Shown here piece by piece: positions 7,814-62,566 of a stretch of 64,000 nt of DNA; within the stretch, counting starts at the first letter, position 1, and each line of letters starts with the position of its first letter. The DNA is from Oceanisphaera pacifica (GTDB lineage Bacteria > Pseudomonadota > Gammaproteobacteria > Enterobacterales > Aeromonadaceae). The DNA lies in contig NZ_JAGDFX010000021.1 in NCBI RefSeq assembly GCF_017498065.1, forward strand, positions 1-64,000. The letters are read 5' to 3'. Position numbers and translations under genes: made by a program. The notes beneath the pieces were generated by a model. The model was not told the DNA's origin and made no database searches. It was given only the letters and a program-made list of their open reading frames with translations.

Positions 7814-7866
7814 ACAATGGATTGCTTCGTACCTCGCAATGACCGACGCTTTGGAGTTTTCTTTAA

Positions 7867-7929
7867 CTGACAGCTGATAGCTTACGGCTAACAGCTAACA
7901 GCTAACAGCTAACAGCTAACAGCTTCCCG
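7867..7929 (+). repeat. CTNACNG heptad array with five identical CTAACAG units
   Basis: Nine consecutive heptads start with CT in unbroken 7-base phase: CTGACAG, CTGATAG, CTTACGG, then five identical CTAACAG units at 7888-7922, then CTTCCCG followed by AAGGGGG. The stop codon and last residues of the neighbouring DUF2726 gene are encoded by this array on the minus strand. Confidence 0.9.
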
Positions 7930-8656: not shown

Positions 8657-9298
8657 ATGAATCAAGTTATTATTAATGGCGCCGATGATGCGCCTAATCG
8701 AGTGTTGTTTGCTCATGGCGCGGGGGCGGGCATGGAGCATGCTGATATGACTTACTTGGCTGAAAGCTTGGCCGATGAGCATATTCAAGTGATCCGGTTT
8801 GAGTTTCCTTATATGCAAAAAACACGTGCCGATGGACGGCGCCGGCCACCAGATCGTGAGCCGATACTACTAGACTACTGGCGAGAAAGGGTGCGTGAGT
8901 TTGCGCACCCTCGATTATTTTTAGCGGGTAAGTCGATGGGCGGGCGTATGGCGTCACTTATTATTGACGAGTTAGCTGATGAGTTAAAAACGGATGAATT
9001 ATCCCCTGCGGGTTTGTTATTATTGGGGTTTCCGTTTACGCCACCCAATAAGCCAGACAAATATCGTGGTGCGCATTTGGCGACACTGCGCGCGCCTACC
9101 TTATTGCTACAGGGTGAGCGCGATGCCTTTGGCAATAAAGAGGCAGTGCAGAAGTTTGAGTTGTCGCCCAAGATACACACTCATTGGCTTAAAGATGGGG
9201 ATCATAGCTTTAAACCGCGTAAAGCTTCGGGCACCACCCTTGATAATAATTTGCGCGAAGTTGTAGCAAAGATGAGGAATTTTATTGTTGCTGGTTAA
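8657..9298 (+). CDS. Alpha/beta-hydrolase, KANL3/Tex30-like family
   Basis: A small cytoplasmic serine hydrolase of 213 residues, related to the dienelactone-hydrolase-like YheT/KANL3-Tex30 group. It shows the oxyanion loop HGAGAGM at 20-26 and the nucleophile elbow GKSMGG at 91-96 with Ser93. LLLQGERDAFG bears the acid, and DGDHSF places the catalytic His at 183. The substrate is unknown. Two genes follow with overlapping ends (DUF423, rlmM), forming a short operon. The start region is divergent from the DUF2726 gene. Confidence 0.87.
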   Translation: MNQVIINGADDAPNRVLFAHGAGAGMEHADMTYLAESLADEHIQVIRFEFPYMQKTRADGRRRPPDREPILLDYWRERVREFAHPRLFLAGKSMGGRMASLIIDELADELKTDELSPAGLLLLGFPFTPPNKPDKYRGAHLATLRAPTLLLQGERDAFGNKEAVQKFELSPKIHTHWLKDGDHSFKPRKASGTTLDNNLREVVAKMRNFIVAG

Positions 9299-9677
9299 AA
9301 GTTGGTTTTACATCGCGGGCTTATTGGGTTTAACGGGCACCGCATTGGGGGCTTATGGCGCCCATGGTTTGGCCTCAAGTGGTACTTCTGAGTCATTGGT
9401 GAGTGCGTTTAATACCGGCGTGCAATATCAGTTTTATCATGCGTTGGCGCTGTTATTAATGGTGCTGGCGTTGCGGGTTAAGTCATTAAAAACGCTGCAT
9501 CTGGCGGCGGGTTTCTTTACACTAGGCAGCTTGCTCTTTAGTGGCAGTATTTATGCTTTAGTGCTGTTAGGCACTAAGGGTATTGGTTTTGTTACTCCGC
9601 TTGGCGGAGTGTGTTTTATGGCGGGGTGGGTCTGCGTGTTGCTGGCCGGTCGCGCCTGGTTGAGGTCTGATTTTTGA
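9285..9677 (+). CDS. ygdD: DUF423 membrane protein (YgdD family)
   Basis: A small inner-membrane protein of 130 residues with about four helices ([20 protein letters not shown] at the N-terminus, then [16 protein letters not shown]). The function is unknown. The most likely start is TTG at 9285, because GAGG at 9274-9277 lies a good distance upstream and no ATG fits. It therefore overlaps the hydrolase gene by 14 bases and its stop shares a base with rlmM. The ygdD-rlmM pairing is also seen in E. coli, which supports both names. Confidence 0.85.
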
Positions 9678-10768
9678 TGAAACAGTTATTAATATATTGT
9701 CGTCCTGGGTTTGAAAAAGAGGCGGCGGCGGAAATTCAGGACCGAGCCGGGCAGTTTGGTAGCCCAGGTTTTGCGCGCACCAAGGACGACAGCGGCTTTG
9801 TTATTTATGAATGCTTTTCACCAGACGATGCTGACCTACTGGCCCGTAAGTTGCTGTTTAGAGAGCTTATTTTTGCTCGACAAATGGTGGTCGTTGAGGC
9901 AGAAGTAAAAGACTTGCCGCTAGATGATCGCATTAGCCCATTACTTGATGCCGCAGAAGGCATGGAGTTATGCGGTGATCTTAGAGTAGAAACCCCCGAT
10001 ACCAATGACGGTAAAGAGCTGTCGCGCTTTTGTCGCAAGTTTACGGTGCCTATGCGCCAAGCATTGCGTGGTAAGGGGTTATTAACCGATAAAGAAGTGC
10101 GCAATAGGCCGATACTGCATTTATTTTTTCTGGCTAATAATCATGCCTTGGTGGGTTATTCATATTCATTTAATAACTCACCTTTTCATATGGGAATACC
10201 GCGATTGCGCTTTCCTGCAGACTCGCCTAGCCGCTCTACTTTAAAGTTAGAAGAGGCGTTTCATGTGTTTATTCCTCGAGAAGAGTGGGATCTGCGCTTA
10301 ACTTCTGGTTTAAATGCGGTAGATTTAGGTGCTGCTCCCGGTGGTTGGACCTATCCGCTTGTTAGCCGTGGCATGATGGTAACGGCGGTGGATAATGGCG
10401 CCATGGACACCAAGTTAATGGATACCGGTCAGGTTAAGCATTATCGCGAAGACGTGTTTAGCTGGCGTCCGGCCCGTAAAAATGTCTATTGGTTGGTGTG
10501 TGACATGGTAGAAAAACCGGCACGTGTTGCGGCCACCATGGCGGCGTGGTTAATGGATGAAGATTGCCAAGAGGCGATATTTAACCTCAAGCTACCGATG
10601 AAAAAGCGCTACGCTGAAGCTGTGCATAATCTGCAGCAATTAAAAGAGAAGCTTGCGGAGTTGGGCGGTTTTCATATACAGGCGAAGCAGCTGTATCACG
10701 ATCGTGAAGAGATTACCGTGCATGTATACCGGCCCTTTAAAGTGGCAAGGTTAGTACCTAAGGAATAA
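9677..10768 (+). CDS. rlmM: 23S rRNA 2'-O-ribose methyltransferase RlmM (C2498)
   Basis: RlmM methylates the 2'-hydroxyl of C2498 of 23S rRNA before ribosome assembly, using S-adenosylmethionine. The 363-residue length fits (E. coli 366). An N-terminal THUMP-like domain ([17 protein letters not shown]) is followed by a Rossmann methyltransferase with SAM motif DLGAAPGGW at 216-224. The catalytic Lys lies in [11 protein letters not shown] near 303. I chose ATG 9677 over TTG 9674: its A is the last base of the preceding TGA, a standard coupled overlap. The stop is followed by repeat DNA. Confidence 0.95.
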
Positions 10769-10772
10769 ATAA

Positions 10773-11090
10773 GCGCCGAGCGCCCGGCGCCAAGTTAAAA
10801 CCTATTTGCAACGGAAGAACGCGAAACCCACAGAAAAATCATAGGAAATGGGGAGTAGGGACTAGGGAATAGGGATTAAAGCAGCACCGAGCGCCCGATA
10901 AACAACGTAGAGGCCGCTTCAGCTGGCCGGTGGCGCGTAGCGGCACTTGTTTAAATCAATATTTTGCTGCGCAGCGCTTTCCCTAAGACAGGAGCCGGCC
11001 AAGCGGCTTCTACAAAAGCGAAAGCAGTGTTTGTCTGTTAATTCAACATTCAACATTCAACATTCAACATTCGACATTGTCCAACAGTCC
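10773..11090. repeat. Repeat block 4 with GCGCCNN, GANTAGG and ATTCAAC heptads
   Basis: No gene lies between rlmM and the terminator. Four heptads of the GCGCCGA/GCGCCCG type run at 10773-10800; a short relative of the AGATCT module follows; GAGTAGG, GACTAGG, GAATAGG and GATTAAA sit in one frame at 10853-10880; and ATTCAAC is repeated four times and then ATTCGAC at 11041-11075. Three unrelated-looking repeats in one gap all keep a 7-base period. The open frame 10947-11162 crosses them and is not a gene. Confidence 0.8.
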
Positions 11091-20020: not shown

Positions 20021-20671
20021 ATACCATACGCGATACGCCATACGCCATACGAAAAGGCCAAACCGGTGTTTTCTTTAACGTAAAGCGATAAGTTCAGCTA
20101 TCAGCTATCAGCTATCAGCTTTCAGGTAAAAAAATGGATTGCTTCGTGCCTCGCAATGACAGCGTAAGGGCAAAAGAAATGTTAAGTGTTTGTCGGTTAA
20201 TTCAACATTCAAAATCCAACATTTAACATTGCTCTTGGGTCATTGCGAGGAGTGCAACGACGCGGCAATCCATTGCACAGACAGTAATAAGCTTGAAGCT
20301 AGAAGCCGGAAGTAAAAACAAAAATAAAAATGCCGCAGTGTTTTTGTTTAGTTTACCGCTTCCAGCTCTGAGCTTCCGGCTTTCTCTATGCGGTACGAAA
20401 GAACAAAACCAGTGTTTTCTTTAACGTAAAGCGATAAGTTCAGCTATCAGCTATCAGCTATCAGCTTTCAGGTAAAGAAAATGGGTTGTTTTTAAGCTTG
20501 GTGCTAGGCGCCGGGCGCTCGGCGCTGTCTTTAAACAGCTGTACGCTTTACGCTAAACGCTATACGAAAAGGCCAAACCGGTGTTTTCTTTAACGTAAAG
20601 CGGTCAGCGTTAGACGTATAGCTTTATTTTGATTTAACTGACAGCTTATAGCTGACGGCTCCCCGAAGGGG
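20021..20671. repeat. Repeat block 6, richest heptad arrays
   Basis: There is no gene. ATACGCC-type heptads at 20026-20053; a 65-bp module at 20066-20130 repeated without visible change at 20412-20476, each holding three AGCTATC units; a dyad half at 20135-20160; the ATTCAAC array at 20200-20230; a dyad module at 20239-20272; AGCTTGA-type heptads at 20290-20317 opposed by TTCCGGC-type heptads at 20353-20387; ten unbroken heptads at 20496-20565, nine beginning GCT or GCC and most ending in C; and the 57-bp module at 20590-20646 shared with 2311. Two bases of the DUF2310 stop region abut the closing CCCCGAAGGGG. Confidence 0.9.
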
Positions 20672-21445: not shown

Positions 21446-21789
21446 TAGGTGTGTGGCTCCTGTTTAGTTGTGCTTGATAACTCGGCTTGCGCTTGTTGCT
21501 GCTCTAAGCGAGCAACTTTGTGCTCTAAGCGAGCAACTTTGTGCTCTAGGGCAATAATACGCTCAATAAGGGCGCGCTCGGCTGCCTCTTTTGATGCCGA
21601 TTTCGCCTCTTTAGCGGTGTCTGTCTGCAAGGGTAGGTTTTGTGGATTTTGTTTATAGCGGCTGATAACTGCCAAGAGTGTCGTTAAACTGACCGAGCTA
21701 TCTAGCCGCGCTTTTACGGTGGCCGTGCTAATGGGTTTGCCTTCGCTTGCTAGGCTATGAATGGCATTAATAATGGCTTGCTCAGGCAT
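21445..21789 (-). CDS. Small coiled-coil protein of unknown function
   Basis: The 114 residues form a short N-terminal helical domain reminiscent of a winged-helix or KfrA-type region (AIINAIHSLASEGKPISTATV, then LDSSVSLTTLLAVISRYKQN) followed by a coiled coil. Two identical heptads, LEHKVAR twice, come from a perfect 21-bp tandem duplication at 21501-21542. A DNA-binding partner for the downstream zinc-ribbon protein is a reasonable guess only. Confidence 0.65.
   Translation of the reverse strand: MPEQAIINAIHSLASEGKPISTATVKARLDSSVSLTTLLAVISRYKQNPQNLPLQTDTAKEAKSASKEAAERALIERIIALEHKVARLEHKVARLEQQQAQAELSSTTKQEPHT
21501..21542. repeat. 21-bp tandem duplication inside a coiled-coil gene
   Basis: Two identical 21-base units in direct tandem encode one heptad (LEHKVAR) each, so the duplication lengthens the coiled coil by one turn pair without breaking the frame. 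A third, diverged unit follows (LEQQQAQ on the protein side). Confidence 0.9.
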
Positions 21790-30023: not shown

Positions 30024-30338
30024 CTTAATCAGGTGATTAGGGACTAGGGATTGGTGATTAGGGAATAGAAGGGCCGTCATTGCGAGGAGCGTAGCGACGC
30101 GGCAATCCATTTAACAGAGGACAAGGGATAGGTGAATAGGGAATAGTAACTGACAGAAAAGCGCGGTGTTCTAATCACGAATCCCTCATCACCGCTCCCT
30201 GCTTTACATTCCTGGATTCGCAATGACCCAAGATCTGGATTTTCTGTAGTTCCACGCTTTAGCTGTGGATTCTGCGAAGCAGAAAGGTTTTTTCGTTAAC
30301 TGACAGCTGAAAGCTTACCGCTGACAGCTCCCCGAAGG
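30020..30338 (+). repeat. Long inverted repeat, left copy (about 320 bp)
   Basis: The left arm contains five GANTAGG-type heptads at 30035-30069, a dyad module at 30076-30109, GAATAGG units, a stretch with CTAATCACGAATCCC, a TTCCACGCTTTAGCTGTGG segment, and CT-type heptads ending CTCCCCG plus AAGGGG. The same modules occur in the same order, reverse-complemented, at 39511-39851. The left arm has about two GAATAGG units where the right has about five, accounting for most of the length difference. Confidence 0.88.
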
Positions 30339-38836: not shown

Positions 38837-38863
38837 TAGCGTGTTAATCAATCATTAATAACT

Positions 38864-38894
38864 TGCCCGGCTTGTAATCAAGCTGGGCATTTTT
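38864..38894 (+). terminator. Terminator of clpA
   Basis: An 11-bp stem (TGCCCGGCTTG with CAAGCTGGGCA, one mismatch or wobble), a TAAT loop and five Ts lie 27 bases after the clpA stop. Confidence 0.85.
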
Positions 38895-38906
38895 ATGTCT
38901 GAAATA

Positions 38907-39511
38907 TAGCGCCGAGCGCCCGGCGCCCCTTCGGGGAGCTATCAGCGGTCAGTTAAATCAAAATAAGGCTATACGCCTAACGCTGTACGTCATACGTTAA
39001 AGAAGGCACCGGTTTGGCTTTTTCGTATAGCGGTCGGCGTAACGCGTACTAAACACCCGTGTGTAGGAGCGAATTCATTAGACCAAAAGAGCGCGGTACG
39101 TTTTACGCTGACCGCCTTACGTCAAAGCCCCCCCAGACTGACTGGTCTTTGGTGCTTGGCGCCGGGCGCTACCCTTTTTGTGCGAATAAATTCGCCCCTA
39201 CGAAAAGCCAGAGCGACGTCCTTTGGTCATTGCGAGGAGTGCAACGACGCGGCAATCCATCTAACAAGCAGCCGTACGCTTTACGCTGAGCGCCTGACGA
39301 AAAAAACAAAATCGTAGTTTTTCTTTAACGTAAAGTGGTCAGCGTTAGATGTAGCGCTTTCTTTCGAAATGGATTGCCGCGCTACGCTCGCAAAGACGAA
39401 ATAAGGGCCGCATAACAATGTAGTACAAAACCTTGACGCCCAACAGAGTATCTACAAAAGATAAGAGCAGAAAACACGGGTTGTTCGTACCGCGTACGGC
39501 TGTTTAAAAGC
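38907..39511. repeat. Repeat block 9, left part (clpA-infA island)
   Basis: This is repeat DNA without genes. Heptads run unbroken from 38909 to about 39000: GCGCCGA-type, TTCGGGG, AGCTATC-type, then TACGCCT-type units. A 71-bp module at 38978-39048 recurs at 39857-39927 with one mismatch. GCNNNNC heptads recur at about 39148-39175. A dyad module is at 39226-39259 and a dyad half at 39370-39397. The frames 39059-39289 and 39595-39801 translate repeat DNA. Confidence 0.85.
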
Positions 39512-39851
39512 CCTTCGGGGAGCTATCAGCGGTCAGCTTTCAGCTGTCAGTTAAAGAAAAAGCCTTTCTGCTTCACAGAATCCACAGCTAAAGCGTGGAA
39601 CTACAGAAAACCCAGAGGGTCATTGCGAGGTACGAAGCAATCCAGGAATGTAAAGCAGGGAGCGGTGATGAGGGATTCGTGATTAGAACACCGCGCTTGT
39701 CTGTCAGTTACTATTCCCTATTCCCTATTCCCTATTCCCTATTCACCTATCCCTTGTCCCCTGTTAAATGGATTGCCGCGTCGCTACACTCCTCGCAATG
39801 ACGGCCCCTCTATTCCCTACTCACCAATCCCTAATCACCTGATTAAGCTAT
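39511..39851 (-). repeat. Long inverted repeat, right copy (about 340 bp)
   Basis: Reverse-complement partner of 30020-30338. It carries eight heptads at 39711-39766, four of them exactly CTATTCC in tandem and then a CTATTCA variant, where the left copy is shorter; a second group (CTATTCC, CTACTCA, CCAATCC, CTAATCA) at 39810-39837; and two dyad modules (39619-39645, 39769-39802). Confidence 0.88.
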
Positions 39852-39856
39852 ACGTC

Positions 39857-39927
39857 TAACGCTGTACGTCATACGTTAAAGAAGGCACCGGTTTGGCTTT
39901 TTCGTATAGCGCTCGGCGTAACGCGTA
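39857..39927. repeat. 71-bp module, second copy
   Basis: Matches 38978-39048 over the whole length with one visible mismatch (GCGCTCGG for GCGGTCGG). It keeps the same 7-base phase (AACGCTG, TACGTCA and so on). Confidence 0.85.
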
Positions 39928-39963
39928 TGGCGGTCTGAAGACAGCGCTCTATTTAACGAAAAG

Positions 39964-40016
39964 CACCCAGCAAAAAAGAGCAATGGCGGTTGCTATTGCT
40001 GCTTTTTTGCTGGGTG
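39964..40016 (-). terminator. Large terminator hairpin downstream of infA
   Basis: CACCCAGCAAAAAAG at 39964-39978 pairs perfectly with 40002-40016, with a second stem AGCA/TGCT in the loop. In the infA direction the second half supplies a T-run inside the stem, so it could work as a terminator or a strong RNA-stabilising structure. Confidence 0.75.
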
Positions 40017-62204: not shown

Positions 62205-62566
62205 GGGGCTGATTCTGGATTCGACGAGATTCACGAACTCCTAGGTGCATGCCGAGGTGCGATAGGCCTCGTTAAAAAATCGCAAAAAAATAGTCGCAAA
62301 CGACGAAAACTACGCACTAGCAGCTTAATAACCTGCATAGAGCCCTTCTACCCTAGCTTGTCTGTGACTTAGGGAATTGGAAGGTCATCCTTCACAGAAT
62401 CGCGTGGAAATCGAGCCTGACGGTGGAAGCGTTAAACTTAATTTAGGCTAGTTATTCTGTGGCGTGTCTATCCGCAGCAGATGGCGAATGTAATGATTAG
62501 ACTAAGCATGTAGTACCGACGACGTAGGTTTTTCGGACGCGGGTTCAAATCCCGCCAGCTCCACCA
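62205..62566 (+). ncRNA. ssrA: Transfer-messenger RNA (one-piece)
   Basis: Starts GGGGCTGATTCTGGATTCG, the canonical acceptor and D-like region, and ends with a tRNA-type T arm (GGTTCAAATCC) and encoded CCA at 62564-62566; the 5' GGGGCTG pairs with CAGCTCC. The tag frame resumes at GCA 62296 and stops at TAA 62326-62328, encoding ANDENYALAA, the same tag as E. coli. About 362 nucleotides, usual length. Gene of the trans-translation system with smpB. Confidence 0.97.
62541..62566 (+). other. Putative attachment site in ssrA 3' end
   Basis: The T-arm to CCA end of tmRNA is a frequent tyrosine-integrase target. Foreign-looking small genes begin within 100 bases. The second att copy would lie outside the window, so this is inference. 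Confidence 0.45.

Follow-up and report, generated by a model that had tools for sequence, protein, structure and literature searches.

Intergenic heptanucleotide repeats of several families, some in the arms of dispersed elements, in Oceanisphaera pacifica

Introduction

STRR heptanucleotide repeats are known in heterocystous cyanobacteria, and the repeats examined in this study have the heptad period in common with them, as an initial annotation of this DNA described them. Heptameric repeats are reported to be over-represented in many bacterial genomes and to have been scarcely studied (PMC4692102). Among long simple sequence repeats, heptanucleotides are described as the commonest in most genomes, and slippage with 7 nt as the polymerase contact length has been proposed (Mrazek 2007, as cited in PMC4692102 and PMC4679880); the preference for seven is common to those repeats and ours. 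Heptads of the form GGGAATC/GGGANTN are described in Xanthomonas and of the form GGGGA(C/T)T in Nostoc (Rehm 2015, PMC4692102), and 83% of the Xanthomonas heptads had their gene context retained in a second species. Beggiatoaceae possess TAACTGA as intergenic heptad direct repeats (MacGregor 2015, PMC4679880). Contrary to what had initially been supposed, heptads are therefore not new to gammaproteobacteria, since both Xanthomonas and Beggiatoaceae have them.

The repeats of O. pacifica share with those of Xanthomonas, as described in PMC4692102, the gammaproteobacterial host, the intergenic location, the heterogeneous units and the low number between divergent ORFs; four as the commonest number of units and the inverted pairs (70 and 75 cases) reported there are also counted as likenesses. 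The main families here are, nonetheless, other sequences, and turnover here is fast. One family fits the GGGANTN form of Xanthomonas, with eight tracts of at least two units in our sample (see below) and none in ten shuffles, whereas GGGAATC, at least one of which belongs to Rehm's definition as given in PMC4692102, was found in 0 of the 8 tracts. The Beggiatoaceae repeats are likewise gammaproteobacterial and intergenic heptad direct repeats, but by the account in PMC4679880 they consist of a single near-invariant unit located chiefly right upstream of start codons. With REP, BIME and REPIN, as described in PMC2817692 and PMC3116915, our case has in common the dispersed intergenic palindromic copies in mosaics; unlike in those systems, the arms here are heptad arrays. 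Our case differs from the known heptads in how many families it has and in its turnover; we are dealing with a rich, unusually varied case of repeats known from other bacteria and with no new kind of system.

Results

The window, i.e., the whole stretch of 64,000 nucleotides that was analysed, contains the following features in its 651-base region at 20,021-20,671, all on the + strand.

20024..20127, +, CCATACG heptads, a B-like piece and TCAGCTA heptads (repeat parsing, array scan, element copies)
20200..20230, +, ATTCAAC heptads (repeat parsing, array scan)
20242..20271, +, REP-like palindrome, one of 89 matches across the genome when seven bases of the pattern are left free
20288..20384, +, dispersed hairpin element A with AAGCNNG arms (copy alignment, consensus fold; fold z -3.4)
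20440..20471, +, TCAGCTA heptads (repeat parsing, array scan)
20496..20529, +, GGCGCNN heptad array, GCTTGGT GCTAGGC GCCGGGC GCTCGGC GC (unit parsing; matches in relatives)
20536..20628, +, dispersed element B, its left arm composed of GCTNTAC heptads at 20538-20566 (copy alignment; DNA fold z -4.0)

The stretch at 20496-20565 had been read as one unbroken run of ten 7-base units. Ten units can indeed be counted, with GCT or GCC at the start of nine and C at the end of seven, but they do not form a single array: the GGCGCNN array is followed by a short spacer and the left arm of element B, and array and arm keep one common phase at this site. Many among the matches listed for two relatives (G032 and G040) cover 20496..20529. 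We also noticed that the AAGCNNG arm of element A (20289-20312) and the GGCGCNN array (20496-20516) have a common core order, namely TT, TA, CG, which could be chance or common origin.

Further arrays are located elsewhere in the window.

7865..7915, +, CTNACNG heptads (array scan; lag-7 shuffle test)
10841..10878, +, GGGANTN-type heptads (array scan; GGGANTN tract search)
11041..11078, +, ATTCAAC heptads with almost identical units (repeat parsing, array scan, shuffle test)
30033..30068, +, GANTAGG heptads of the GGGANTN type (array scan, shuffle test, GGGANTN search)
38837..40010, no strand assigned, mosaic of heptads, three B elements and REP-like palindromes, absent from most relatives (relatives' gaps, alignment, copies)
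39711..39764, +, CTATTCC heptads, which read GGGAATA on the complementary strand (parsing, array scan, shuffle test, GGGANTN search)

A 21-base tandem repeat at 21492-21548 lies within a reading frame of 114 aa, with a KfrA_N match below the Pfam cut-off. When the window was scanned with Rfam at gathering scores, nothing was found beyond the tmRNA gene at 62205-62566 (RF00023).

The arrays of the initial annotation are present at the positions given there, and the period of seven that had been noted was significant (p <=0.0005, 2000 shuffles) in 10 of the 11 stretches tested from its list, the sole exception being 28 bases at 38909 (p 0.08). In intergenic autocorrelation, lag 7 was also in excess, both in the window (z 10.6) and in a 464 kb sample made up of the window and 20 further stretches. 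This sample covers ~15% of the genome (3.11 Mb in 37 contigs) and is not random because the stretches were taken from contigs with matches to the 651-base region. In this sample, z was 31.5 at lag 7 and 19.8, 14.7 and 5.0 at lags 14, 21 and 28, while lags 2 to 6 were raised less (z 3.3 to 8.7). Its 252 noncoding regions, which rest on genes called via a simple open-frame rule, held 135 lag-7 arrays (0 in one shuffle); counts at the other lags from 3 to 30 were 1 to 15, apart from the multiples of 7 (85 at lag 14, 29 at lag 21 and 14 at lag 28). A tandem 7-base period above chance in intergenic DNA, as in bacterial heptanucleotide repeats, is thus present.

As had also been observed in the initial annotation, units are mostly non-identical while one period extends over several unit sequences: among 158 tight arrays graded by lag-7 identity, 119 were at 60-80%, 27 at 80-95% and seven lower, and only five reached at least 95%, so that the arrays as a whole do not belong to the perfect-repeat class with near-identical units. 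Nearly identical long arrays are nonetheless present (L092 8984 and L103 17620). The idea that each heptad is diversified with its frame kept fared unevenly; it is clearer between copies of element A (see below), but within arrays the invariant phases were only slightly above random placement (z 1.7; z 2.0 to 3.3 depending on the filter), which rules out strong frame conservation there. Nor are families generally joined in one phase, as had been proposed, given that, of 89 pairs of adjacent GC-phased runs from the sample, 10 shared a phase, with chance at ~1/7. Few inverted pairs came out of a strict motif search, which was replaced by an identity-based partner search; at 65% identity, 32% of 132 arrays could be matched with an inverted partner, compared with 15% for control flanks, and this excess was almost gone at 75% identity (9.8% vs 7.3%).

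Many intergenic regions are mosaics of element A, element B, REP-like palindromes and single arrays; palindromic copies dispersed in intergenic DNA, as in REP/REPIN, are thus found here. The sample contains 33 copies of A and 48 of B, some of the latter with a left arm of another family. Among paralogous copies, to which this comparison is confined, units differ in 7-base steps clearly in A and slightly in B: gaps were multiples of 7 in 197/383 cases in periodic context vs 151/1351 elsewhere for A (pairs not independent), and in 34/248 vs 127/1339 for B. One copy of A, for example, carries GCTCTCA four times at a place that is occupied in the other copies by a single GCTCTCA or a variant, and such whole-unit differences are as expected from slippage. 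GC columns, picked from the consensus of 27 copies in each case, were the least variable in A (0.005 vs 0.111 outside arrays) and in B (0.111 vs 0.278). The consensus fold of A (27/33 copies) has 20 pairs with no compensatory change, and that of B (27/48 copies) shows no arm-to-arm pairing; structure under selection was hence rejected, as covariation was absent from both. As DNA, three of four stretches folded better than shuffles, and the remaining one, a B copy, folded no better.

In terms of enzymes, the genome has two Y1_Tnp (RAYT-like) genes (G000 C35:34158-34520 and C2:85702-86040). The REP core sought here, that of the REP-like palindromes, was not found within ~1.5 kb on either side of both genes, a possible difference from REP, BIME and REPIN as described; a weak element A match lies near one of them. 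As a separate observation, the REP-like palindrome occurs four times at L092 ~9185-9708 (G000 C2 109185-109708) in steps of 164-165 bases, with AGC heptad arrays in between (at 9265, 9430 and 9595), the block being repeated in tandem. Also, in some spacers between facing heptad arms (e.g., L090 33-130 and L089 9295-9370), short hairpins rich in G+C precede runs of T and by eye look like terminators.

With respect to gene orientation, arrays were found in 2/46 divergent, 43/153 tandem and 26/53 convergent regions. The clpA-ate gap is 1507 bases here; of 14 relatives, 13 have 466-555 bases and the remaining one has 957, and from ~40014 onward the gap is alignable in all 13 relatives examined. 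The syd-DUF2310 gap, by the measure used for it, is 658 here and 5-440 in 20 relatives, among which G032, G044, G017 and, just above the threshold, G058 carry other heptads. At corresponding sites, most of the sampled relatives have different heptads or none. When 15 further members of the genus were sampled, lag-7 z was at least 3.9 in six (G046, G035, G032, G040, G044 and G054), several of which had sampled stretches placed at hits, 2.3 in G038, and -0.5 to 1.0 in eight; the loci flanking GlnD in four other Oceanisphaera records showed no lag-7 excess (z 1.1). GlnD of the genome studied here shares 84% identity with its Oceanisphaera arctica counterpart. AAGCNNG arrays were found in 20/23 genus genomes, with prevailing cores differing among the five that have places listed, in 3/38 other family members and patchily elsewhere in gammaproteobacteria; across the phylum, they were in 20/398 genomes, one of them (G464) outside the class, some being AAGCCCG, which the control matched too. 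Facing AAGCNNG-type arms also occur in a gammaproteobacterium of another family (L180). A GCNN frame peculiar to gammaproteobacteria was rejected (52/369 genomes, while the reversed control gave 35 in a count by eye). Loss of SbcD and loss of MutS were likewise ruled out, the former being present in 23/23 genus genomes and the latter in O. pacifica.

Discussion

The dominant 7-base period, the two elements with heptad arms, the whole-unit differences among A copies, the rarity of arrays between divergent genes and the differing content at corresponding sites in relatives are best explained, with a probability of roughly 60%, by intergenic heptanucleotide repeats of several families that arise through slippage or exchange, drift, and in part have turned into arms of spreading elements. 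New units would be generated in steps of 7 bases, through slippage during replication or through unequal exchange, and would drift once made. Some arrays may then have become arms of elements that spread through REP/MITE-like copying by a putative enzyme; the recurring GC pairs might be retained through pairing between arms, and heptads would accumulate away from divergent promoters. Against this explanation, slippage gives no reason for the length of seven. Further points against it are the other lags raised in single-copy DNA (see below), the slight excess of multiples of 7 and the lack of arm-to-arm pairing in B, the absence of compensatory change in A, the B copy that folded no better than shuffles, the near disappearance of the inverted-partner excess at 75% identity, and the REP core not found near the RAYT-like genes.

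It is unlikely that copying alone suffices, i.e., that a few heptad-armed elements were multiplied and the period was inherited from them. Such a process would suit elements A and B, the 130 genome matches of the 651-base region and the 20605 of 68354 noncoding bases that copy an earlier stretch. After these copies were masked, however, lag-7 z was 13 and 47 arrays remained; single-copy fragments gave a lag-7 z of 6.7 and 27 lag-7 arrays, with counts of at most five at any other lag of 3-13 and 15, and with autocorrelation also raised at lags 2, 3, 4 and 9 (6.1, 7.9, 4.4 and 3.7), lag 3 thus exceeding lag 7. The 7-base period survives removal of copied DNA, and the differing heptads of relatives at the same site also argue against copies only.

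A dedicated process that writes or rewrites heptads, in which an enzyme or binding protein sets unit length and anchor bases and leaves the cores free, is in our estimate quite improbable. It would account for a single period across unrelated families, different heptads at one orthologous site (syd-DUF2310), the almost invariant GC anchors of element A, and AAGCNNG arrays throughout much of the genus with differing prevailing cores, but core bias within arrays is slight and long near-identical arrays exist; a reverse transcriptase as the writer was discarded, with PF00078 not found in the genome. We give very little credence to heptads as selected binding or structural sites, e.g., at transcript 3' ends, which would be consistent with their rarity between divergent genes and with the better folding of three stretches but not with their non-retention at orthologous sites (clpA-ate and syd-DUF2310) or the lack of covariation.

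Beyond the slippage, drift and spread preferred here, it is conceivable, if rather doubtful, that some process in the genus fixes the unit length at seven regardless of sequence. The unrelated families in one genome, the different heptads of different species at one site and the retained GC anchor point tentatively in this direction; against it, 8 of the 15 other genus members sampled are without lag-7 excess. If true, replication or repair would have a length-setting property that is readable in related genomes. As 135 degenerate arrays were counted in 15% of its genome and relatives have few, O. pacifica offers natural material for testing why seven, and the sites at which heptad sequence but not length changes between species offer further material for the same question.
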